Source: Candidatus Woesearchaeota archaeon
GTDB lineage: Archaea > Nanobdellota > Nanobdellia > Woesearchaeales > JAFGLG01
Direction: 5' to 3'
Length of the DNA: 9,073 nt
Assembly (NCBI GenBank): GCA_016928155.1
Contig: JAFGLG010000003.1
Location: 1-9,073 of the forward strand
Shown: in pieces, positions 1-9,073 of the stretch
How positions within the stretch are numbered: position 1 is the stretch's first letter
Layout of the letters: the number at the start of each line of letters is the position of its first letter
Position numbers and translations under genes: made by a program
Notes under the pieces: generated by a model
The model's input: the letters and a program-made list of their open reading frames with translations, nothing else
The model's database searches: none
What the model was told of the DNA's origin: nothing

Positions 1-168
1 TGTGTCGACTGCTGGTGAGCTTTCTGATATCGCTAATGTTCCCAGGTCAAGGAGCTATGATGTTCTTGAATCCCTTGAGAAGAAAGGATTCATTGTGATG
101 AAATTGGGCAAGCCTATCAAGTATATCGCTGTCCCGCCCGAAGAGGTCCTCGAGAGGGTCAAGAAGAA
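1..168 (+). repeat. Left arm of 168-bp inverted repeat (TrmB DNA-binding domain)
   Basis: Bases 1-168 match the reverse complement of 8906-9073 at 162 of 168 positions. Bases 1-87 and 101-168 match exactly. All six differences (88, 91, 92, 93, 99, 100) fall within 13 bases. Past base 168 the two genes diverge sharply. The repeat is coding sequence for the winged-helix part of both regulators and starts at the very first base of the window, so its full extent is unknown. Confidence 0.95.
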
Positions 169-703
169 AGTACAGGAAGACAGCTCAAAGCAGATAACCA
201 TGATCGAAAGCCTCAAGAATACAGACGTCCTTTCTGAGCTTAAGCTACTGCACAACCAGGGCATCGAGCTGGTCGAGCCAACAGACCTTTCCGGCGTATT
301 CAAGGGAAGGAATAACCTATACAATCATCTTGAGCTGATGGTAAAATCTGCTGAGAAATCAATAACGCTCATGACCACAACAAGCGGTTTCATCAGGAAA
401 TCAGATGCCTTCCAGAAAGCAATGGAGAAGGCAAAAGAAAGAGGAGTAAAGATCAGGATCGCCGCACCAGTCACAAAAGAGGCCCAAGGCGCATTACGGG
501 ACATATCAAAGCTAGCAGAAGTGAAGAGCTTCAAGGACATGAAGGGGAGATTCCTTGTAGTCGACGGGAAAGAAGTCATGTTCATGCTGCTCGATGACGA
601 AGAAGTGCATCCCACTTATGATGTCGGTGTCTGGGTCAACACACCATTCTTCGCAACAATACTAGAGAAGCTGTTTGACCAGAACTGGAAGCAGACAAAG
701 TAA
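2..703 (+). CDS. TrmB-family transcriptional regulator, copy 1 (5' end missing)
   Basis: This is a winged-helix regulator of the TrmB family, which in archaea binds promoter DNA and senses sugars or other small ligands. The first ~55 residues carry the family's DNA-binding hallmark (STAGELSDIANVPRSRSYDV, then LEKKGF). A helical linker covers about residues 50-80. The rest resembles the TrmB sensor domain with a phospholipase D-like fold: GVKIRIAAP near 150, then RFLVVDG and HPTYDVGVWVNTPF near the end. I see no HxK catalytic motif, so enzymatic activity is unlikely. The frame is open to the window edge, and the codon at base 2 (GTG) lies inside the recognition-helix region, so the true start and first helix are outside the window. 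A T-run follows the stop. The paralogue at the other end of the window shares an almost identical DNA-binding part. The regulated genes are unknown; agmatinase downstream is a candidate only by position. Confidence 0.85.
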   Translation: MSTAGELSDIANVPRSRSYDVLESLEKKGFIVMKLGKPIKYIAVPPEEVLERVKKKVQEDSSKQITMIESLKNTDVLSELKLLHNQGIELVEPTDLSGVFKGRNNLYNHLELMVKSAEKSITLMTTTSGFIRKSDAFQKAMEKAKERGVKIRIAAPVTKEAQGALRDISKLAEVKSFKDMKGRFLVVDGKEVMFMLLDDEEVHPTYDVGVWVNTPFFATILEKLFDQNWKQTK

Positions 704-846: not shown

Positions 847-1734
847 ATGCAAACTCCATCAGACCAAACTTCATCTAACCACACCACACCAAACTTCTGC
901 GGCATGGAAGAACAGGATTTCTCCAAGAGCAAAGCAGTGGTGCTCCCTGTCGCTTATGAAGGCACAGTAAGCTATCTAAAAGGAACCTCAAAAGGCCCGG
1001 CAGCAATAATCGAAGCATCAAGGAATATGGAGATCTATGACATCGAACTCGATGTGCAGCCAGATGAAACAGACATATTCACAACAGAAGAGATAACACA
1101 CAGAGGAGAGAACCCAGAAGAGATGATGGAGAAGATCAAGAAAGAATACAGCATCCTCCTAGATTCCGGGAAATTCATAGTCATGCTCGGCGGCGAGCAT
1201 TCAGTGACAAATGGAGCACTGCAGGCGCTAAAGGAAAAAGGATTCAAAGGAAGCATACTCCAGATAGATGCACATGCAGACCTGCGCGAGGAATATGAAG
1301 GCACAAAGAACAACCATGCATGCGCAATGAGAAGAGCAAGAGAGATGTTCCACTGCGTGCAGGCCGGCATAAGGAGCATGTCAGTGCAAGAAAGCAGATT
1401 CATCAAAGACAACAAAATAGACACGATCTTCTATGCACCACTCACAGAAGAGAAGATACCTGAAATAATATCAAAGCTCAAGGATGATGTATATATCACC
1501 ATAGATCTTGACGGCTTAGACCCAAGCATAATGCCTGGTGTCGGAACACCAGAACCGAATGGCCTGAGCTATGAGTTCCTGCTAAGATTATTGCGAGCAG
1601 CATTTGAGAAAAGAAATGTGATAGGGGCAGATGTAGTCGAACTAATGCCGCTCCCAGACAACAAGGTATCTGATTTCACAGCATCACTGATAACATACAA
1701 GCTCATATTATATAAGCTCTTCCTGGCAGATTAG
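847..1734 (+). CDS. speB: Agmatinase (ureohydrolase family)
   Basis: The enzyme hydrolyses agmatine to putrescine and urea in cytosolic polyamine synthesis; some archaeal members act on aminopropylagmatine instead. All binuclear manganese ligands of the arginase/agmatinase fold are visible: H118 in GGEHS, D141, H143 and D145 in DAHADL, and D220 and D222 in TIDLDGLDP. GVGTPEPNGL (231-240) is the agmatinase-type substrate loop, and E265 in DVVEL matches the guanidinium-binding Glu. The length of 295 is normal. Residues 1-16 are polar and low in complexity; M20 is an alternative start, but F17 and G19 fit the family and the TATA box suits 847. The gene appears to be a single transcription unit. 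In other archaea this enzyme supports hypusination of aIF5A; neither aIF5A nor deoxyhypusine synthase is in the window. Substrate choice between agmatine and aminopropylagmatine cannot be settled from the sequence. Confidence 0.93.
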   Translation: MQTPSDQTSSNHTTPNFCGMEEQDFSKSKAVVLPVAYEGTVSYLKGTSKGPAAIIEASRNMEIYDIELDVQPDETDIFTTEEITHRGENPEEMMEKIKKEYSILLDSGKFIVMLGGEHSVTNGALQALKEKGFKGSILQIDAHADLREEYEGTKNNHACAMRRAREMFHCVQAGIRSMSVQESRFIKDNKIDTIFYAPLTEEKIPEIISKLKDDVYITIDLDGLDPSIMPGVGTPEPNGLSYEFLLRLLRAAFEKRNVIGADVVELMPLPDNKVSDFTASLITYKLILYKLFLAD

Positions 1735-1765
1735 CCACTACAACCAGAGAGCAGAAAACAAAACC

Positions 1766-1773
1766 TTTATAAA
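1766..1773 (+). promoter_or_regulatory. TATA box of the small membrane protein gene
   Basis: TTTATAAA, preceded by A-rich sequence (AAAACAAAACC), lies 63 bases before the ATG at 1829. Predicted initiation near 1795 gives a leader of about 30 bases that includes the Shine-Dalgarno site. Confidence 0.6.
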
Positions 1774-1812
1774 TGTAGCTCCGTTTAAAAAGGCATACAA
1801 TTCATATTCAAA

Positions 1813-1820
1813 AAAGGAGG
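1813..1820 (+). promoter_or_regulatory. Strong Shine-Dalgarno site
   Basis: AAAGGAGG ends eight bases before the ATG at 1829 and fixes that start. It is the strongest ribosome binding site in the window and contrasts with the apparently leaderless or near-leaderless agmatinase and pheS genes. Confidence 0.8.
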
Positions 1821-1828
1821 ATGATAAC

Positions 1829-2041
1829 ATGGCATTAAGTGTTGAAGGACTGACACTGAGCATAATCATTGGAACCCTTGCTGCAATCGTGTACAGCCTA
1901 AGAATTCTCGTGCTTCTTGAAAGAAGGATCGCAAGGATGGACCTCAATATCGAGAGGATCACCAGGAGAATAGCAGCAGAAGAACTGGTAATCGAGAGAC
2001 AAGAGTCCCAAATCCTGAAGAAGCTCAAGAAAAAGAGATAA
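1829..2041 (+). CDS. Small single-pass membrane protein with basic coiled-coil tail
   Basis: I do not recognise this 70-residue protein. It has one hydrophobic segment at about residues 8-30, rich in Ile, Leu, Val and Ala. A continuous charged helix follows (31-70) with heptad-like hydrophobic spacing and a very basic end (KKLKKKR). The positive-inside rule puts the tail in the cytoplasm. The layout suggests a membrane tether or oligomeric scaffold, perhaps binding nucleic acid or acidic protein through the tail, but that is inference. Its own TATA box, strong Shine-Dalgarno site and a T7 tract after the stop argue that it is a real, well-expressed gene. The nuclease gene begins 20 bases downstream, so some read-through is possible. 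Confidence 0.7.
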   Translation: MALSVEGLTLSIIIGTLAAIVYSLRILVLLERRIARMDLNIERITRRIAAEELVIERQESQILKKLKKKR

Positions 2042-2048
2042 TTTTTTT
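2042..2048 (+). terminator. T7 terminator after small membrane protein
   Basis: Seven T follow the TAA stop directly, with no hairpin. The tract lies within the 20-base gap before the nuclease gene, which has no clear TATA box of its own, so termination is probably partial. Confidence 0.45.
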
Positions 2049-2061
2049 CCATTTCTTTAAA

Positions 2062-2673
2062 ATGATAAAACATGTCTCACTTAATCATGGCTGGTTCTAT
2101 TATTACAGGCTGCACACAAAGAAGGTCGCAGAGCTGTGCACAGGATTTCCGGAACTGAACACATACCTGGAAAAGATGTTCACTGAATGCCCAAATGACT
2201 ATTTCCTTGATGGGCCCAGATCATCGCACCTCAAATTCAACCTGGGCATAGATGTCAGCTGCATAGGGCTCCACGAAGTGTCCGGCCTGGCGAAAGAAGG
2301 CCTGAAAAGCAAAGCATACAAGACTGCGCATTCAAATGTCGAATGCTTCATGCTGGAAAGGGATGACAAGACAATAGCAGTCGAAGTGCCCATATGGCTT
2401 CACCCCTATGAGATAAAGATGTACGAAGAGATCTTCAAATCAAACAAGCCACTGTCAGGCCACATAGACATACTCAGGGTGGAAGACGGCAAGATATGGA
2501 TATGGGATTATAAACCCAAGGCCCACAGAGAAAAATATGCCGACACACAGACATTCTTCTATGCATTCATGCTGAGCAAAAGGACAGGGATACCTCTCGA
2601 GAAATTCAGGTGCGGTTATTTTGACGAGAACAATGCATATGCCTTCAAGCCAACAGAGGGAATCATCGCATGA
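2062..2673 (+). CDS. PD-(D/E)XK nuclease-like protein (RecB/Cas4-like)
   Basis: The second half matches the RecB/Cas4-type nuclease core. E108 lies in a hydrophobic strand (AVEVPIWL). GHID at 133-136 gives the metal-binding Asp. DYK at 149-151, on a strand IWIWDYK, gives the acidic residue and Lys of the D/ExK motif. QTFFY (163-167) is the QxxxY motif. All core residues are present, so DNA cleavage is plausible. The first ~85 residues are unfamiliar and could set specificity. The cysteine cluster of Cas4 iron-sulphur proteins is not evident, no helicase is fused, and no cas gene is nearby. The start at 2062 is the first ATG after the previous stop and has no Shine-Dalgarno site. The 3' end overlaps the next gene by ATGA, which implies joint translation with it. 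Confidence is high for the fold and low for the biological role (repair, defence or RNA processing). Confidence 0.75.
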   Translation: MIKHVSLNHGWFYYYRLHTKKVAELCTGFPELNTYLEKMFTECPNDYFLDGPRSSHLKFNLGIDVSCIGLHEVSGLAKEGLKSKAYKTAHSNVECFMLERDDKTIAVEVPIWLHPYEIKMYEEIFKSNKPLSGHIDILRVEDGKIWIWDYKPKAHREKYADTQTFFYAFMLSKRTGIPLEKFRCGYFDENNAYAFKPTEGIIA

Positions 2674-3302
2674 AAACCAATATGCCTGAAGCTGCAAAAA
2701 CACTGAACGAGAAAGTGCAGAGATCAAAGGCAAAGAATTCAAGAGAGCTGATGAGATACATATCCATGTCAATCAAAAAAACCGGCAAGAAGGATCCGCT
2801 CGCAGAAAATTCTCTTAAATTCATGACATACCTGCTCAGACCATACCATGTCCTTGACCTCAAGCACACAATCAAAGAGAGATACGAAGAGCTGGCCCAT
2901 CATTTATCTGCATCAGACGAGAAAATCGCGAAGCTGGCCTCAAAAAAGATAAAGAACGGATCAAAGATCGGCATCTCAAGCAACAAAGGACTCGTGGGGA
3001 AAGCGCTGGGAAATGCGAGATCCGACAGAAAGAGATTCACAATATCCAAAATAGAGGATCCTGAAAACGACATTATACTGGCTGAATGCGAAGCAGTGAC
3101 CCCCTATGGTGCGGTAAGCAAAGCGCTGCGCGGTAAGAGGACCGGGCATGCCCAGACCTTCCTTCTCTGCAACACACACAAATTCACAAAAAGGGATGAG
3201 AGAAAAGGAATCCCAGATATGGTTATCATATCTGAGCTAGGCATCCATAAGCATAAAGCACTCCTTGAAGAAATAAAGAAATATCCCTGGCTCACTTCTT
3301 AG
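2670..3302 (+). CDS. Reduced eIF2B-fold-like protein, function unknown
   Basis: I do not recognise an exact family. From about residue 70 the pattern resembles the eIF2B alpha/ribose-1,5-bisphosphate isomerase fold. ASDEKIAKLASKKIKNGSKI (81-100) resembles the helix and strand before that family's TH-C/S-N/S loop, here GISSNKG. FTISKIEDP matches the usual V-x-V-x-E-x-x-P stretch, EAVTPYGAVSKA (141-152) the DAVTPxGAVNKxGT stretch, and LLCNTHKF (165-172) the PFYVxxxxxKF strand. The usual segment with the DSA motif (a catalytic Asp in the isomerase) appears deleted. At 210 residues it is well below the usual ~300. The isomerase active-site Cys is also missing, so binding or scaffolding is likelier than isomerase activity. 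Residues 1-70 are basic and helical. The start is fixed by the ATGA overlap with the nuclease gene, and the end overlaps the convergent TFE gene by 11 bases. Confidence 0.6.
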   Translation: MKTNMPEAAKTLNEKVQRSKAKNSRELMRYISMSIKKTGKKDPLAENSLKFMTYLLRPYHVLDLKHTIKERYEELAHHLSASDEKIAKLASKKIKNGSKIGISSNKGLVGKALGNARSDRKRFTISKIEDPENDIILAECEAVTPYGAVSKALRGKRTGHAQTFLLCNTHKFTKRDERKGIPDMVIISELGIHKHKALLEEIKKYPWLTS

Positions 3303-3906
3303 AGCGAATCTTTTTCTTTGCTGTTTTCCTGGCAGGCTTATCCCTAGTGACCCTGACCTTGGGTGATCTGGCTGCCTTCGGCCTTGCAGCCGCTTTCCTG
3401 ACCTTAAGACCCATTATCCTCTCAATATCAGAGATATCACTCCTCAATTCAGAGATCTTCTTGACATTGTCATCATGCTGCATTATCGCGCCGCATTCAG
3501 GACACTTAAAATTGAAATTCGAGGCCTGATCAAAATCCAACCTCATGCAGTTGTTGTTACAGAAGAAAAAGAAGCCTTCTTCCTCACGCCCCAGCCTCTC
3601 CTGTAGCCTGACTAGCTTTCCTGTCATGATCTCATCCATGAGGAATCTCACACGCTTCGGATTGAAGTTCCAATAATAGATATACCATCCTTTCTTCTTA
3701 TCCTTTCTCCTGGCGAACGAAACAAGATCCCTGTGATATAACCTATAAAGCATATTCCTTGTCTCATTGACCTCCTGCTTCAGGGTCTCAGCAAGCTTAA
3801 ACTCAGAAATATTCTTCTTAGCCCTCAGAATCTTGACCAGGGGCATAACATCCTGTCCAGCGATATCTGTGACAACCTCTTCAATTATCTTGTTAGACAG
3901 CTTCAT
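3292..3906 (-). CDS. tfe: Transcription factor E, alpha subunit (TFIIE-alpha homologue)
   Basis: TFE joins the archaeal preinitiation complex with TBP, TFB and RNA polymerase and helps open the promoter. Using residue numbers from the longer GTG start at 3915, the extended winged helix spans about 8-95 (LAETLKQEVNETRNMLYRLY, then GWYIYYW). A linking helix follows, then a zinc ribbon with cysteines C119, C123, C138 and C141. The first zinc knuckle is CNNNC, one residue longer than the usual CxxC. I prefer ATG at 3906 (MKLSNKIIEEVV), which matches other TFE N-termini; GTG at 3915 would add three residues. Residues 172-207 form a Lys/Arg/Ala-rich tail not typical of the family, which may bind DNA. 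Its 3' end overlaps the eIF2B-like gene by 11 bases. Transcription probably starts from the TATA box at 3961-3968. Confidence 0.92.
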   Translation of the reverse strand: MKLSNKIIEEVVTDIAGQDVMPLVKILRAKKNISEFKLAETLKQEVNETRNMLYRLYHRDLVSFARRKDKKKGWYIYYWNFNPKRVRFLMDEIMTGKLVRLQERLGREEEGFFFFCNNNCMRLDFDQASNFNFKCPECGAIMQHDDNVKKISELRSDISDIERIMGLKVRKAAARPKAARSPKVRVTRDKPARKTAKKKIRSKK

Positions 3907-3960
3907 CCAAACCACATGACTCTTTTTTGCAATATAACAGGAATTTCCTCAAAAGGGGGA

Positions 3961-3968
3961 TTTATAAA
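3961..3968 (-). promoter_or_regulatory. TATA box of tfe
   Basis: TTTATAAA, preceded on the minus strand by GGAAAATA (a good BRE-like purine and A stretch), is centred about 58 bases before the ATG at 3906. Initiation near 3938 gives a leader of about 30 bases. No canonical Shine-Dalgarno site is near the start. Confidence 0.55.
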
Positions 3969-4012
3969 TATTTTCCTAAAATCCTGCAAAATAATTGGCT
4001 AAAAAACCCCTA

Positions 4013-4034
4013 AATCCCAGTATAAGCTGGGATT
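4013..4034. other. Perfect 8-bp hairpin in the tfe-rpl34e region
   Basis: AATCCCAG (4013-4020), a six-base loop TATAAG and CTGGGATT (4027-4034) form a perfect stem. It is upstream of the tfe TATA box on the minus strand and just ahead of a plus-strand TATA-like element at 4049. It may be a protein-binding dyad rather than an RNA hairpin. Confidence 0.5.
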
Positions 4035-4048
4035 GGGAAGATTACAGG

Positions 4049-4056
4049 TTATATAA
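4049..4056 (+). promoter_or_regulatory. TATA-like element without an assigned gene
   Basis: TTATATAA is 241 bases before the rpl34e ATG, too far to be its main promoter. Initiation would be expected near 4076-4080. It could drive a small RNA, a long rpl34e leader, or nothing. Confidence 0.3.
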
Positions 4057-4169
4057 ACATTTCTGTGTCGTTACTTGAAGATAAACAAAAAATAATTGAA
4101 AATAAAATCAGAAGAAATCTTAGATCCATCCCAAAACACCAGAAAATCCTCATATATACAAATAGGGGG

Positions 4170-4177
4170 TTATAAAG
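4170..4177 (+). promoter_or_regulatory. Second TATA-like element upstream of rpl34e
   Basis: TTATAAAG follows a run of five G and would start transcription near 4200, about 90 bases before rpl34e. The context AGGGGG-TTATAAA resembles the element at 3954-3968 (AGGGGGATTTATAAA). It could be an alternative promoter giving a longer ribosomal-protein leader. Confidence 0.3.
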
Positions 4178-4249
4178 CCACTCCAATCACAAAAAAAGAA
4201 TATTCATCCTTCTATGGATACTGAGCAGGCATCTAATCCTATCAAAAAA

Positions 4250-4257
4250 TTTATAAA
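4250..4257 (+). promoter_or_regulatory. TATA box of rpl34e
   Basis: TTTATAAA, preceded by a run of A (CAAAAAA), is centred about 36 bases before the ATG at 4290. The predicted leader is about 10 bases and contains GAGGG (4281-4285), a weak Shine-Dalgarno site close to the start. Confidence 0.6.
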
Positions 4258-4289
4258 AGCCCCCCAGTTCCGTCAGCAACGAGGGCAAC

Positions 4290-4550
4290 ATGGTAGAAGG
4301 AAAACACAGATCAAGATCATTAAGGCGAGTCTTTGTAAAAACTCCAGGCGGCACAAACAAGATACAGTACAAGTTGCGCAAGCCATCAAAAGCCAAGTGC
4401 GTGTGCGGTGCAGAGCTCCAAGGCGTGCCAAGAAAGACAACAAGACAGATGAAGAACACGCCGAAGAGCAAGAAGAGGCCCCAAAGAGCGTTCGGCGGGA
4501 CACTCTGCTCAAGATGCACAAGGAAAAAGATTATTGAGAATTCTCGATAA
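4290..4550 (+). CDS. rpl34e: Large-subunit ribosomal protein L34e (eL34)
   Basis: This is a small zinc-binding protein of the 50S subunit, found in archaea and eukaryotes only. The family signature is clear: RSRSLRRVFVKTPGG near the N-terminus, then KPSKAKC, GVPR, KSKKRPQRAFGG and LCSRC. The length of 86 is typical. The second zinc knuckle is a normal CSRC (C73, C76). The first is C37-V-C39, a CxC where CxxC is usual, although the flanking residues align well, so a sequencing error is unlikely to explain it. The ATG at 4290 fits the nearby TATA box. In many archaea this gene sits in a cluster with adenylate kinase, cytidylate kinase, L14e and the Cbf5/TruB pseudouridine synthase; here only L14e follows. 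Confidence 0.95.
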   Translation: MVEGKHRSRSLRRVFVKTPGGTNKIQYKLRKPSKAKCVCGAELQGVPRKTTRQMKNTPKSKKRPQRAFGGTLCSRCTRKKIIENSR

Positions 4551-4563
4551 TCTCTTTTTATTT
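4536..4563 (+). terminator. Palindrome plus T-tract at the end of rpl34e
   Basis: GAGAATTCTC (4536-4545) is a perfect palindrome spanning the last codons. It is followed by a T-rich stretch, TCTCTTTTTATTT, to 4563. This may end part of the rpl34e transcripts, leaving L14e to read-through, as no good TATA box lies between the two genes. Confidence 0.4.
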
Positions 4564-4576
4564 GAAAGTGAATCCA

Positions 4577-4590
4577 TGACGGCGACGTCA
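4577..4590 (+). other. Hairpin with GCGA (GNRA) tetraloop before rpl14e
   Basis: TGACG-GCGA-CGTCA forms a perfect 5-bp stem closed by a GNRA-type tetraloop, 31 bases before the L14e start. Its high GC content stands out from the AT-rich surroundings. It could be a processing or protein-binding site in the ribosomal-protein mRNA. Confidence 0.5.
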
Positions 4591-4592
4591 CG

Positions 4593-4620
4593 GAGGATAA
4601 AATAAAAACGAGAGGATAAA
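4593..4620 (+). promoter_or_regulatory. Duplicated Shine-Dalgarno-like element before rpl14e
   Basis: GAGGATAAA occurs twice, at 4593-4601 and 4612-4620. The second copy is directly before the ATG at 4622 and probably serves as the ribosome binding site. The first touches the foot of the hairpin at 4577-4590 and could be a standby site. Confidence 0.55.
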
Positions 4621-4621
4621 C

Positions 4622-5002
4622 ATGATCGAAATCGGAAGAGTCTGCAAGAAACTGGCGGGTAGAGACGGAAACAACTACTGCATCATAGTCGATGTGCTGG
4701 ATGACAAGTATGTGCTGATAGACGGCAATGTAAGAAGGAAGAAGTGCAATGTCTCACACCTTGTCGAGACAAAAGACAAGACAGATATAAAGAAGGGAGC
4801 AGACACAAACGCAGTCCTCAAAGCACTGGAAAAGCTGGGCGTGAAAATACTAAAGAGAACAGCGCCAAGAAAAAAGAAACAGGAGAAGCCGGCAAGGGTG
4901 CGCAGGAAGAAAGAGAAGCCTAAAAAGGCAAAGCAAGAGAAGAAACCCACAGAGAAGAAAGCCGAGAAGACAGAAAAAACAGAGACAACAGACAAAACAT
5001 AA
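4622..5002 (+). CDS. rpl14e: Large-subunit ribosomal protein L14e (eL14) with long charged tail
   Basis: This archaeal/eukaryotic 50S protein has a KOW-type fold. Residues 1-50 match the family: IEIGRVCKKLAGRDGNN, then IIVDVLDDKYVLIDG, VRRKKCNVSHL. The core ends by about residue 82. Residues 83-126 add a tail made almost wholly of Lys, Glu, Thr, Ala and Arg, so the 126-residue product is clearly longer than the usual archaeal protein of roughly 75-100. The tail is probably disordered and may contact rRNA. The gene lies 71 bases after rpl34e, with a Shine-Dalgarno-like GAGGA before the ATG. It converges on pheT, with only 30 bases between the stops. Confidence 0.93.
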   Translation: MIEIGRVCKKLAGRDGNNYCIIVDVLDDKYVLIDGNVRRKKCNVSHLVETKDKTDIKKGADTNAVLKALEKLGVKILKRTAPRKKKQEKPARVRRKKEKPKKAKQEKKPTEKKAEKTEKTETTDKT

Positions 5003-5010
5003 TCTTTTTA
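5003..5010 (+). terminator. T-tract after rpl14e
   Basis: TCTTTTTA begins directly after the TAA stop in the 30-base gap to the convergent pheT gene. It is a short U-tract without a hairpin. Confidence 0.4.
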
Positions 5011-5032
5011 TCCAACCTTTTCCAAATATTTC

Positions 5033-6691
5033 TCAATAAAAATTCTTTTCAACCCTTCCAAACAGCCCAGTGATATCCAGCTCCAGCACTGCAACAGGAT
5101 AGTCAAGCGAAAAATTCTGCAGGACCTGCGGGTGCATCTCGCCGATGAAAGCAATCTTCTCATTGCCGACCGAGACCCTGCCGACCCTCCCCGGGATGAA
5201 AGAAGGATGGGAGACCTCATCAATGCCGTACACAAGCCCGAGATTTGCAAACAGATAATCAAGAACCTGCTTAATCTTGGTGAAATTCGCTTCAGCAGAG
5301 CAGAGAGTCACGCAAAGCCTGATATCCTCCCTGACACCTGTTTCAGTATCGCCCTTCCTGAAAACAGTATTGATCTCAAAGATATCCTGAGGATATTCAT
5401 AGCTCTTGTTCCTAGCCAGGATCTCGAGATGATTGGGCACAATCCAATACCTAAGGACATTGTAGTCTGATGTCAAGGCATTCTTCAACTCAACAACATC
5501 AGCATCAAGCAGCATCCTACTGCACTGGACATCCTTATTCGAGATATGATATGAATTGACTTCAAGAAGCCCCAATCCGAGCAGGATATGAGCAATCTTC
5601 CTCCTGAAAATCTCAATAATGTCCTCTCTCGCAATAGTGGACACCTCAGGTATCTCCTCCTTGAAACTCTCAAAACCATATGCAATGGCTATATCCTCCA
5701 CAAAATCCACCTGATGCATGATATCAGCACGATAGCAAGGGACAGAAACCCTGCCTTTCGAGTATCCAAAACCCATCTTTCCCAGAAGCTTTTTCACATC
5801 AGGTTCAGAAAGCTCAAGCCCCAGGCGCCTATTTATATAAGCAAGATCAAGATCCCACAGTTCAGGCTGCATCTCCGGCGAAACGATCCTCTCATCAGGG
5901 TACTCCAAGACCATCTCATGTATCTCGCCACCCATGTCAGCCAAGGAACAGAGGATTATGTTCAGCAATCTGCTCTGGGCCTTCATGTCAAAGCCGGATG
6001 TCTCAATGAACACATCAGTGGTCTTATCACAAACCTTGCCAGTCATATGGGAGTTGATTATCGGCGGCATGGACAGAACATTGCCGTCAGCATCCTCAAA
6101 GACAGGAAAAAGATCCTTGCCTTCAAGAAGATGAGCGAACTCCCTCCCTGTTGGATGCTGCCCTAGGATCTGCAAGCCATTGAGCTTCTTATCCATCTCG
6201 AGAGGAACAAAACATATATCCTTGGGCTTCTTTGCCCTATAATAGATCGGAAGCCTGATCTTCTCCAAGGGATAGATCCCAATAGCTGCCTTCTTCCTGT
6301 TCCTGCAGAATGTGACATGAAGCTTCTCCTGAAGCTGGATTATCTCCCTTATCTTCTCGTCATCAAACTTAAGGTTCTTCACTATCGCGCACATGGTATA
6401 AGGCCTCACTTTCTTCACGCTCGGCTCGACAATCACACGATAATCTGATTTCCTCACCTTGTATTCCCTGAGGCCGGTCTTGACACCTATGAACGAGGCA
6501 AAAGCCCTGGCAAAACCCTGCTCAGAAAGCATATCAGGACGATTCGGGAAGATCTCAACGACAATATCATTCCCCTCAATCTTCTCCAGATCAGTACCGA
6601 GCATGGAAATACGATCCTTGAGACTATCATCATCAAGCTTCTTGCCAACCAGCTTCTCGAATTCCTTCCTGTTTATGGTTATTGTCGGCAT
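5033..6691 (-). CDS. pheT: Phenylalanyl-tRNA synthetase beta subunit
   Basis: With PheS it forms the cytosolic heterotetramer that charges tRNA-Phe; the beta subunit binds tRNA and carries editing activity. At 552 residues it is the short archaeal/eukaryotic form. The N-terminal B1-like part holds FPNRPDMLSEQGFARAF (48-64). The B3/B4 editing domain covers about 90-265, including GQHPTGREFAHLLEG and PPIINSHMTG. B5 lies at about 275-342, with the typical YRADIMHQVDFVEDIAIAYG. The C-terminal part (about 355-552) is the catalytically inactive class II-like fold. No gap or frameshift is seen. The ATG at 6691 is 57 bases after the pheS stop with no TATA box in between, so pheS-pheT is an operon. 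The spacer has no strong Shine-Dalgarno site near the start and repeats GACAAT three times. Confidence 0.96.
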   Translation of the reverse strand: MPTITINRKEFEKLVGKKLDDDSLKDRISMLGTDLEKIEGNDIVVEIFPNRPDMLSEQGFARAFASFIGVKTGLREYKVRKSDYRVIVEPSVKKVRPYTMCAIVKNLKFDDEKIREIIQLQEKLHVTFCRNRKKAAIGIYPLEKIRLPIYYRAKKPKDICFVPLEMDKKLNGLQILGQHPTGREFAHLLEGKDLFPVFEDADGNVLSMPPIINSHMTGKVCDKTTDVFIETSGFDMKAQSRLLNIILCSLADMGGEIHEMVLEYPDERIVSPEMQPELWDLDLAYINRRLGLELSEPDVKKLLGKMGFGYSKGRVSVPCYRADIMHQVDFVEDIAIAYGFESFKEEIPEVSTIAREDIIEIFRRKIAHILLGLGLLEVNSYHISNKDVQCSRMLLDADVVELKNALTSDYNVLRYWIVPNHLEILARNKSYEYPQDIFEINTVFRKGDTETGVREDIRLCVTLCSAEANFTKIKQVLDYLFANLGLVYGIDEVSHPSFIPGRVGRVSVGNEKIAFIGEMHPQVLQNFSLDYPVAVLELDITGLFGRVEKNFY

Positions 6692-6748
6692 AACATCATC
6701 CCATTGTCATCATCTAAATATTGTCTTCTCTCTATTGTCCTCGCTCCT

Positions 6749-8302
6749 TCATTTCATCCACTTCTTCAGCCTTCTCAGCTGGCCGATATCATTCCTGTAG
6801 AGATCCCTTATATCTGTAAGACCAAAATATTCCATAAGCTGCCTGTCCAATCCCGGACCCCAAGCCAGAACCGGAACATCAATGCCGAGCAGAGGCTTCA
6901 CGACCTCGGGCCTGAAAATCCCGGCACCGCCGAGCTCAACCCATTTCTTGTGGACAGGATGGAAGACGTCAATCTCGACACTGGGCTCTGTATACGGGAA
7001 GTGAGCAGGCCTGAACCTGGCTTCAGGAAATCCTATCTTCCTGAAAAATTCCTTGAGATAACCCAAAAGATGCCTGAAATTAGCGTCCTGGTCTATCACA
7101 ATGCCCTCGAACTGATTGAACTCAAAGAGATGGCTCCAATCCATTGTCTCATTCCTGAAATTCCTCCCGACTGCAAAGAATTTTTTCGGAAGATCAGACT
7201 TCTTCAGCGAGGCGAGAGTGCGGGCGCTCAATACAGTGGTGTGGGTCCTCAGCACATTCTGTTTGGCCTCATTCTCATCCCAAGGCTTGCCCCAGCCTCT
7301 TGATCCTGTGTCCCCTCCTCCCTCATGAACTGCCCTGACCCTGGCGACAAGCCTCTTATCAGGAAGCCTGCCCTCAGACGGCGATTTAATGAAAAAAGTA
7401 TCCTGCATCTCCCTCACAGGATGATCCTGTGCAGTGAAGAGCGCATCAAAGTTCCAGAAAGATGTCTGGGCATACTGGCCTGACATCTCCTCGAATCCCA
7501 TATCAAGCCATACACGCCTCGCATAATCAACCACATCGCAAACAAAATGACGCCTGCCCCCATTTATCCTCGGCACATTTATCCTGACATCATAACGCCT
7601 GAATTCCCCACCTTTCCAGGAACCGTCCTTGAGCATCCCGGGCGTGAGCTTCTCGAGAAGCCCCATCCCCATGTCTGATGAGGCAACTTCCTTCCCCAAG
7701 GGAGTCAGCTTCGCGTACTTAGTCTTGCTGGCTGCCTTCTTTATTATCAGAGGCCTCTTGCAAAGCTCATCAAAGGCAAACTTCTCCTCTGGTTTCAGGG
7801 ATGAAAGCTCCATATAACCTTTCCCGAGCTTCATGATAAGCCTGTCCTCCAAAGAATCCTTCAGAAGCATGTTCTTCCCATTCTCCTGAATGCTGAATCT
7901 AGGCCCTGGCAGGACGATTATCGCGCCTTTCTTCTTCAGACTGCCGATGCAGACACCCAACTCATCCTTATCAAGAGATGCAGCCCTGCCTATCTCCTCA
8001 AGAGAAAGAGGCTTTTTCCTGACTGCTTCCAGGAACCTCTTCTCAGGAAGGCCCTTGTCAGCATAGACAACACCATTCTTATCCAGAGAAATAAAATCAG
8101 CAGATGACGACTCAATCTCAACAAGGCCCTTATTAGAAAGCCATTGGAAAGCCCTCATCACCTTTATCTCTTCAAGCCCTGTCGCAGAACAGACATCATC
8201 CAGGGAAGCCCGGCCTTTCAGAGAGCCAAGGACAGCCGCCTCTACCTGAGAAAGGCCTTTCGCTATCCACAAAATGTCAGTCTTAACCTGCTTCTTCGGC
8301 AT
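6749..8302 (-). CDS. pheS: Phenylalanyl-tRNA synthetase alpha subunit
   Basis: This is the catalytic subunit, which activates phenylalanine and transfers it to tRNA-Phe. The 517 residues follow the archaeal/eukaryotic plan. About 220 N-terminal residues form winged-helix modules (VEAAVLGSLK near 20, FLEAVRKKPLSLEEIGRAA near 90-108). The class II catalytic domain follows. Motif 1 lies around 250-300 (DVVDYARRVW, then DHPVREMQDTFF). Motif 2 is at 376-400 (FAVGRNFRNE, then HLFEFNQFEG). The phenylalanine pocket is at 435-443 (FPYTEPSVE). Motif 3 is at 480-490 (AWGPGLDRQLM), with its Arg at 487. All are intact. It is the first gene of the pheST operon. The ATG at 8302 lies 26 bases from the centre of a canonical TATA box, so the mRNA is probably leaderless. 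Confidence 0.97.
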   Translation of the reverse strand: MPKKQVKTDILWIAKGLSQVEAAVLGSLKGRASLDDVCSATGLEEIKVMRAFQWLSNKGLVEIESSSADFISLDKNGVVYADKGLPEKRFLEAVRKKPLSLEEIGRAASLDKDELGVCIGSLKKKGAIIVLPGPRFSIQENGKNMLLKDSLEDRLIMKLGKGYMELSSLKPEEKFAFDELCKRPLIIKKAASKTKYAKLTPLGKEVASSDMGMGLLEKLTPGMLKDGSWKGGEFRRYDVRINVPRINGGRRHFVCDVVDYARRVWLDMGFEEMSGQYAQTSFWNFDALFTAQDHPVREMQDTFFIKSPSEGRLPDKRLVARVRAVHEGGGDTGSRGWGKPWDENEAKQNVLRTHTTVLSARTLASLKKSDLPKKFFAVGRNFRNETMDWSHLFEFNQFEGIVIDQDANFRHLLGYLKEFFRKIGFPEARFRPAHFPYTEPSVEIDVFHPVHKKWVELGGAGIFRPEVVKPLLGIDVPVLAWGPGLDRQLMEYFGLTDIRDLYRNDIGQLRRLKKWMK

Positions 8303-8352: not shown

Positions 8353-9072
8353 TCATTTGATGTTCTGGTTTGCAGGCTTCATGTTCTTCCAGGCAACATC
8401 AAACAGGTTCTCCATGGCATTCGCGTAGAAAGGCGTGTTGACCCAGATGCCGACATCATAAGTCGGGTGAACCTCTGAGTCGTTAAGGACCATGAAGACG
8501 AGCTCCTTGCTGTCAACAATACAGAACCTCGCTTTCCTGTCAGTATGCCTGACCTCAGCAACAGCACCGACATCCTTGAGAGCATTCATTGATTCCTTTG
8601 TCATAGGTGCTGCAATCCTTATCTTGACACCCTTCTTCTTCAGCTTCTCAAAAACCGGCTTCAATCCCTCGACCTTCCTGATGAAACCCTGGGATGTGGA
8701 CATGATAGTCACAGATTTCTGTGCGTTCTTGATACTCATCTCAAGGTGATTGTAGAGATTATGCCTCCCTTTCAGGGAGCCGCTCAGATCAGACGGCTCG
8801 ATCAGCTCGATGCCCTGGGTGTGGAGAGTCTTCAGCTCGTCGAGAATCTCAGTATCCTTGAGCTCCTCAAGCCTCAGCACCTGCTTCTCTGACTCACTCT
8901 TGATGTTCTTCTTGACCCTCTCGAGGACCTCTTCGGGCGGGACAGCGATATACTTGATAGGCTTGCCCAATTTGGTCACAGCAAACCCTTTCTTCTCAAG
9001 GGATTCAAGAACATCATAGCTCCTTGACCTGGGAACATTAGCGATATCAGAAAGCTCACCAGCAGTCGACAC
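8353..9072 (-). CDS. TrmB-family transcriptional regulator, copy 2 (5' end missing)
   Basis: This is a paralogue of the regulator at 2-703, facing it from the other end of the window. Residues 1-55 differ from copy 1 at only two positions (31 and 33), including an identical STAGELSDIANVPRSRSYDV recognition region. After residue 56, identity falls to about 55% by eye. The conserved sensor-domain landmarks remain: LYNHLE, KKGVKIRIAAP, HPTYDVGIWVNTPF. Like copy 1 it lacks an HxK catalytic motif. The C-terminus is slightly longer (KPANQNIK). The frame is open to the last base of the window, so start codon and promoter are missing. It lies upstream of pheST on the same strand but is separated from it by a T-rich terminator and a TATA box. 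Shared DNA-binding and different sensor halves suggest that both read the same operators in response to different signals. Confidence 0.85.
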   Translation of the reverse strand: MSTAGELSDIANVPRSRSYDVLESLEKKGFAVTKLGKPIKYIAVPPEEVLERVKKNIKSESEKQVLRLEELKDTEILDELKTLHTQGIELIEPSDLSGSLKGRHNLYNHLEMSIKNAQKSVTIMSTSQGFIRKVEGLKPVFEKLKKKGVKIRIAAPMTKESMNALKDVGAVAEVRHTDRKARFCIVDSKELVFMVLNDSEVHPTYDVGIWVNTPFYANAMENLFDVAWKNMKPANQNIK

Positions 9073-9073
9073 A
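8906..9073 (-). repeat. Right arm of 168-bp inverted repeat (TrmB DNA-binding domain)
   Basis: This is the reverse-complement partner of bases 1-168, with 162 of 168 identical and an exact match of 8987-9073 to 1-87. It runs to the last base of the window. Both arms begin at the same base of the gene, which is what an assembly broken at a repeat would produce. Confidence 0.95.

Follow-up and report, generated by a model that had tools for sequence, protein, structure and literature searches.

The window analysed in this study is the whole of contig C3 (9073 bp) of an archaeal genome, G000, which comprises 1.48 Mb in 17 contigs and is 99.7% complete. Both ends of the window lie inside convergent trmB-like genes. 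Gene A (2..703, forward strand) is the 3′ part of an ORF from codon 32 to the end, and gene B (8353..9072, reverse strand) is likewise a 3′ part. In both genes, PF01978, the TrmB winged helix-turn-helix at the N-terminus, and PF11495 scored above cut-off. The structure model of a relative of the K class (defined below) displays the winged helix-turn-helix, a coiled-coil helix at residues 78-104, and a PLD-like C-terminal domain. Bases 1-70 of the window also form the 3′ ends of two other contigs, C9 and C6, which hold the missing gene starts: codons 1-31 and the promoter of gene A lie at the 3′ end of C9, and those of gene B at the 3′ end of C6.

The intervening region (847..8302) encodes an agmatinase-like protein, a 70-aa protein, a PD-(D/E)XK protein, an IF-2B-like protein, and TFE alpha, as judged from Pfam matches and ORFs. 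It also contains genes which I take to be those of L34e, L14e, PheT, and PheS, named by sequence recognition rather than by a profile search. The ORF with the initiation-factor-2B-like match (2670-3302) adjoins the PD-(D/E)XK nuclease-like ORF (2062-2673). On C9, a PolD large-subunit-like ORF of 1173 aa lies upstream of the trmB-like gene (L005:299-3820), and an intein-like insertion in it was suspected by eye only.

Two ancient regulator classes and their shared block

Relatives of the regulator were found in 114 of the 117 genomes of the order, mostly two per genome; in named collections, they belong to Candidatus Woesearchaeota and related DPANN bins. The N-terminal alignment splits them into two classes, K (MIVKEEFLSKLRRYFSLNLYEVKIW...) and Q (MIVQKDFLSKLKDFGLNSYESKLW...). 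In the tree of the sensor domains, the K sensors cluster tightly, with a single long-branched Q row falling among them, and those of Q are more diverged. With cross-validated profiles, every K gene scored at least 35 bits towards K and every Q gene at most 8 bits. The sensor of gene B is of the K class (TrmBL2-like) by tree and profile, and gene A is of the Q class by the sensor tree and a small profile margin (-4 bits). Since gene A goes with Q and gene B with K, gene A was paired with C9 and gene B with C6. In no genome is the N-terminus of one class combined with the sensor of the other, according to trees and profiles. The protein sequence of the DNA-binding segment is nearly invariant across the order.

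The gene order around the two classes is conserved: a PolD large subunit gene near Q, then the genes for the 70-aa protein, TFE, L34e, L14e, PheT, and PheS, followed by K and a 349-aa ORF. Other families also have this core, from the 70-aa protein gene to pheS, lying between their Q and K genes. Thus, the K/Q duplication predates the families, and by synteny it is older than the species compared here, as concerted evolution implies.

When positions 1-168 of the window are aligned with the reverse complement of 8906-9073, 162 of the 168 bases agree (96.4%). The mismatches are solely at positions 88, 91, 92, 93, 99, and 100, so that 1-87 and 101-168 are exact matches, and divergence between the two genes sets in immediately at base 169. 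The sequence-only reading had noted about 96% identity with a sharp break at base 168, both of which hold, and had placed the identity in the first bases of the genes, which does not. C9 and C6 stay identical for 17 nt beyond the window and are mostly unlike thereafter. Since the block is equally sharp-edged upstream, the tract is internal and does not represent the gene start. In full, it comprises 185 bp with six mismatches and covers codons 26-87 of about 265. The conversion tract thus lies at 1..168 on the forward strand in gene A and at 8906..9073 on the reverse strand in gene B, extending 17 nt upstream on C9 and C6, respectively. From the structure model of the K-class relative, it spans the end of helix 2, the helix-turn-helix with the recognition helix, the wing, and the start of the coiled coil.

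Outside the tract, the promoter, N-terminus, and sensor of the two genes are diverged. The sensors are 57% identical at the protein level, close to the earlier estimate of about 55% for the rest of the proteins. Within the window part of the block, 51 of the 53 shared residues have identical codons, as compared with 47 of 97 in the sensor. For the complete tract (codons 26-87), the values are 57/59 versus 48/98. Chance can be excluded, because the share of identical synonymous codons between K and Q genes of different genomes averages 0.39 and reaches 0.71 at most (n = 2352). A tract with sharp borders between unlike flanks is a mark of concerted evolution. A search of the G000 genome found the segment in genes A and B only, and the recognition helices of the other G000 TrmB proteins examined differ from those of genes A and B.

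Could the assembler have joined reads of one gene onto the other? Each of the four contig ends carries exactly 87 nt of a 104-nt exact repeat, in keeping with a de Bruijn assembler that stops at a repeat longer than its k-mer. One relative, G049, looks misassembled at the same place. This break accounts for the contig end. It does not account for the second exact block (101-168), which is separated from the first by diverged bases and does not reach the length of the inferred k-mer; the earlier claim that this match is no end artefact was therefore right. Moreover, G023, G117, and G120 hold both homogenised copies on one contig with unique flanks, and the assembly of G071 breaks independently at the same place. 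An assembly chimera, which the sequence-only reading had named as a possible refutation, is thus highly improbable. In G049 (C9:34700-36100 and 65800-67200), both copies are without their N-terminal codons and the junctions coincide with the start of the shared repeat; the loss of the N-termini is probably a local misassembly at the repeat.

Homogenisation of the DNA-binding segment across the order

Is this common in the order? In each of 49 genomes, the proportion of residues shared by K and Q that also have the same codon was compared between the DNA-binding domain and the sensor of the pair. The DNA-binding domain was significantly above the sensor in 10 of the 49 pairs (BH q<0.05), namely in G000, G071, G049, G081, G066, G069, G058, G108, G015, and G097. 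Four of five further pairs are also homogenised (G023, 60/60; G117, 52/57; G123, 41/55; G120, 39/55). Of all 54 genome pairs, 14 thus have silent sites that are homogenised in the DNA-binding segment but not in the sensor. The excess of identical codons is highest at residues 37-54 (0.97). The plot of synonymous divergence along the gene, proposed in the sequence-only reading, is thus low over the DNA-binding segment only, in G000 and in 13 of the 53 other pairs, and the sensors of the homogenised pairs belong to two different classes by trees and profiles, as it had anticipated. Its explanation by gene conversion is well supported, although not as a single event, since the homogenisation recurs throughout the order.

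The near invariance of the protein segment in the order may suggest that the two genes are kept alike in the absence of conversion, either by purifying selection or by a DNA or RNA signal that has a function within the coding sequence. However, the synonymous identity between K and Q genes of different genomes is 0.387 in the DNA-binding segment and 0.391 in the sensor, so that silent sites are equally diverged in both. Since the DNA-binding domain is no more alike than the sensor between genomes, the pattern is not explained by codon constraint or by a DNA signal embedded in the gene, and this alternative is hardly tenable. In four of five genomes of one family (f82), each of the two genes resembles its paralogue more than any of the orthologues compared; such an order of likeness at silent sites is a further mark of concerted evolution. 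An identical segment beside diverged segments could also be produced by a recent duplication with domain fusion, which would make one of the two genes a new chimera of this domain and a different sensor. Both genes have orthologues at the same place in distant families, each with the N-terminus and the sensor of its own class, which makes such a fusion extremely improbable.

It was found that the identity drops with the distance between the copies (rho -0.57, p 0.006, n = 22, with kinship partly controlled; -0.76 with f82 collapsed). An effect of orientation, by which convergent pairs would be more homogenised, had been suggested by the first same-contig pairs. It was dropped (p 0.17), undone by G023 (tandem, 60/60) and G122 (convergent, 23/57).

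The G000 copies are convergent, a crossover between them would invert 9 kb, and the orientation of C3 is not fixed by the assembly. Thus, it was considered whether inversion between inverted copies serves as a switch that swaps sensors or promoters and homogenises the copies only incidentally. An invertible switch implies that both arrangements of the gene halves exist; no exchange of classes was found in any genome, and sensor swapping by inversion was rejected in view of the class agreement of N-terminus and sensor. Homogenisation is also seen in tandem pairs such as G023, and orientation has no significant effect on identity. A switch of this kind is very unlikely. Since the N-terminal and sensor classes were never exchanged, the surviving events are gene conversions and not crossovers.

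No significant homogenisation was seen in 40 of the 54 pairs. Since the protein domain also stays alike throughout the order in pairs that show no sign of recent conversion, its likeness does not depend on conversion. From the sequences compared here, conversion seems to accompany a shared specificity; that it is necessary for the specificity is no part of the claim.

The wing strand, a putative operator and a model

All six mismatches of the G000 tract lie in an island at 88..100 (forward strand), in or beside residues 62-64. These residues belong to the first strand of the wing and are class-characteristic, IVM in gene A and AVT in gene B. Q proteins mostly have I-[IV]-M and K proteins mostly [VA]-[VI]-[MT] at this site. 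In G117, too, this island separates two stretches that are identical for the most part, while in G023 the island was converted as well. The downstream border of the tract coincides with a class-specific position (VKKN/VKKK) at the start of the coiled coil. This pattern suggests selection against conversions that overwrite the residues of the wing strand or the coiled-coil start.

The Q promoters of the order have a 20-bp palindrome, TTRTTACT-N4-AGTAAYAA, which ends 4-7 bp before the BRE/TATA. Its EM log-likelihood was 210 for the Q promoters of about 30 genomes, as compared with 27-35 in shuffles. I consider TTATCACTATTAAGTGACAA a candidate operator sequence for the K and Q proteins. The candidate regulon of G000 was sought by pattern search only, and 15 perfect sites were found versus one for the reversed control; most of 39 relatives also show an excess of sites, with few exceptions. 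A strong BRE/TATA match begins 4-5 bp downstream of 8 of the 15 G000 sites, versus a control rate of 0.3%, and several more sites have weaker BRE/TATA matches at the same spacing. A site with one mismatch (C9:187339) lies in the upstream region of the Q gene itself, and a PEP synthase-like gene has a perfect site in front of it. No operator motif was found inside the window. The K and Q proteins may bind the predicted palindromic sites. Against this, the K promoters, in which the TATA block is conserved, have just degenerate operator half-sites at the same offset, and other TrmB paralogues are present in the genome and could bind the predicted operator instead.

Sites in G000 also precede genes for a caspase/FHA protein, SLT transglycosylase-like and RNA methyltransferase-like proteins, and unknown secreted-looking proteins. 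The K promoter block AAAAA-n-CGTAACATATTAATAGTAGT is conserved across many families, for example upstream of the K gene on C6, more than would be expected for a plain TATA box. The AGTAGT following this block might be a second regulatory site.

Taken together, I favour, with a probability of roughly 85%, ancient K/Q paralogues whose DNA-binding domains have repeatedly undergone gene conversion and which would read one operator and pass on two signals via their different sensors. In this model, two ancient trmB-like paralogues, the TrmBL2-like K and Q, flank the housekeeping pheST/TFE/L34e/L14e locus order-wide, and homologous recombination without crossover repeatedly copies about 0.1-0.2 kb of the DNA-binding domain between them. 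The tract itself, its recurrence, the dependence on distance, and the lack of class swaps are seen directly in the sequences. Conversion may be able to start in this domain because the same protein constraint in both genes preserves matching stretches of DNA, while the promoter, N-terminus, and sensor may be too diverged to pair. Conversions overwriting the class-specific wing strand or the coiled-coil start would usually be lost. Both proteins may read the palindrome TTRTTACT-N4-AGTAAYAA, which lies just upstream of BRE/TATA like the sites of TrmBL1-activated promoters, and they may receive two different signals through their different PLD-like sensor domains. The earlier proposal that two regulators with different sensors are kept on one operator set is plausible on this sequence evidence. 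I would advance only tentatively, at somewhat less than even odds, the stronger claim that conversion confined to one domain is what holds the two regulators on one operator, with the wing strand spared by selection, as a two-input node maintained by recombination.

Duplicated regulators usually diverge in specificity or disappear. In the present case, sequences from many separate lineages reveal a process that could keep the DNA specificity common while the sensors diverge. Recombination, protein constraint, and network wiring are thereby connected in the DPANN archaea, about whose regulation almost nothing is known, and a predicted operator and a candidate regulon are obtained.

Comparison with known systems

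The closest solved relative is TrmBL2 (5BPD; full-length sequence match, E 5e-20), and TrmBL2 of Thermococcales (PDB 5BPD, 5BOX, 5BPI, 5BQT) is the best structural match of the model of the K-class relative. They share the winged helix-turn-helix with a Tyr-Asp pair at about 50/51 and are similar in length. In contrast to TrmBL2, there are two paralogues per genome here, and the model aligns poorly over the full length (TM 0.46). The positioned palindromes suggest sequence-specific regulation rather than mainly chromatin coating, unlike TrmBL2.

The operators of TrmB and TrmBL1 are known as TACT-N3-AGTA and the TGM, TATCAC-N5-GTGATA, and a site upstream of BRE/TATA is associated with activation by TrmBL1 (PMC4158304, PMC4706686). 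The predicted sites resemble these in being palindromes with a TACT/AGTA core just upstream of BRE/TATA and in having a PEP synthase among the genes concerned. They differ in the TACT-AGTA spacer, which is 4 in the present motif, known from motif search only, and in that several other site-bearing genes are unrelated to sugar metabolism.

I found no literature on TrmB gene conversion, Woesearchaeota TrmB, or DNA-binding-domain conversion that describes this pattern. In prokaryotes, 26 genes are known to have undergone recurrent concerted evolution (Wang and Chen 2018, PMC6053082). According to the available text of that report, these are enzymes, tuf, flagellin, a P-II protein, and histones, including seven archaeal genes, all of methanogens, and that text names no DNA-binding transcription regulator among them. 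As far as the same text goes, the K/Q pair resembles those cases in that the copies of one genome are more alike than orthologues are, silent sites included, with gene conversion as the cause, and in the recurrence over deep time at conserved chromosomal places. It differs from them in consisting of transcription factors, in belonging to a DPANN order, and in being homogenised in one domain only, the remainder being anciently diverged. As far as I could find, no transcription factor has been described whose concerted evolution is limited to one domain and extends over an order. The process itself is already known; what appears to be new is its confinement to a single domain of two paired regulators throughout an order.
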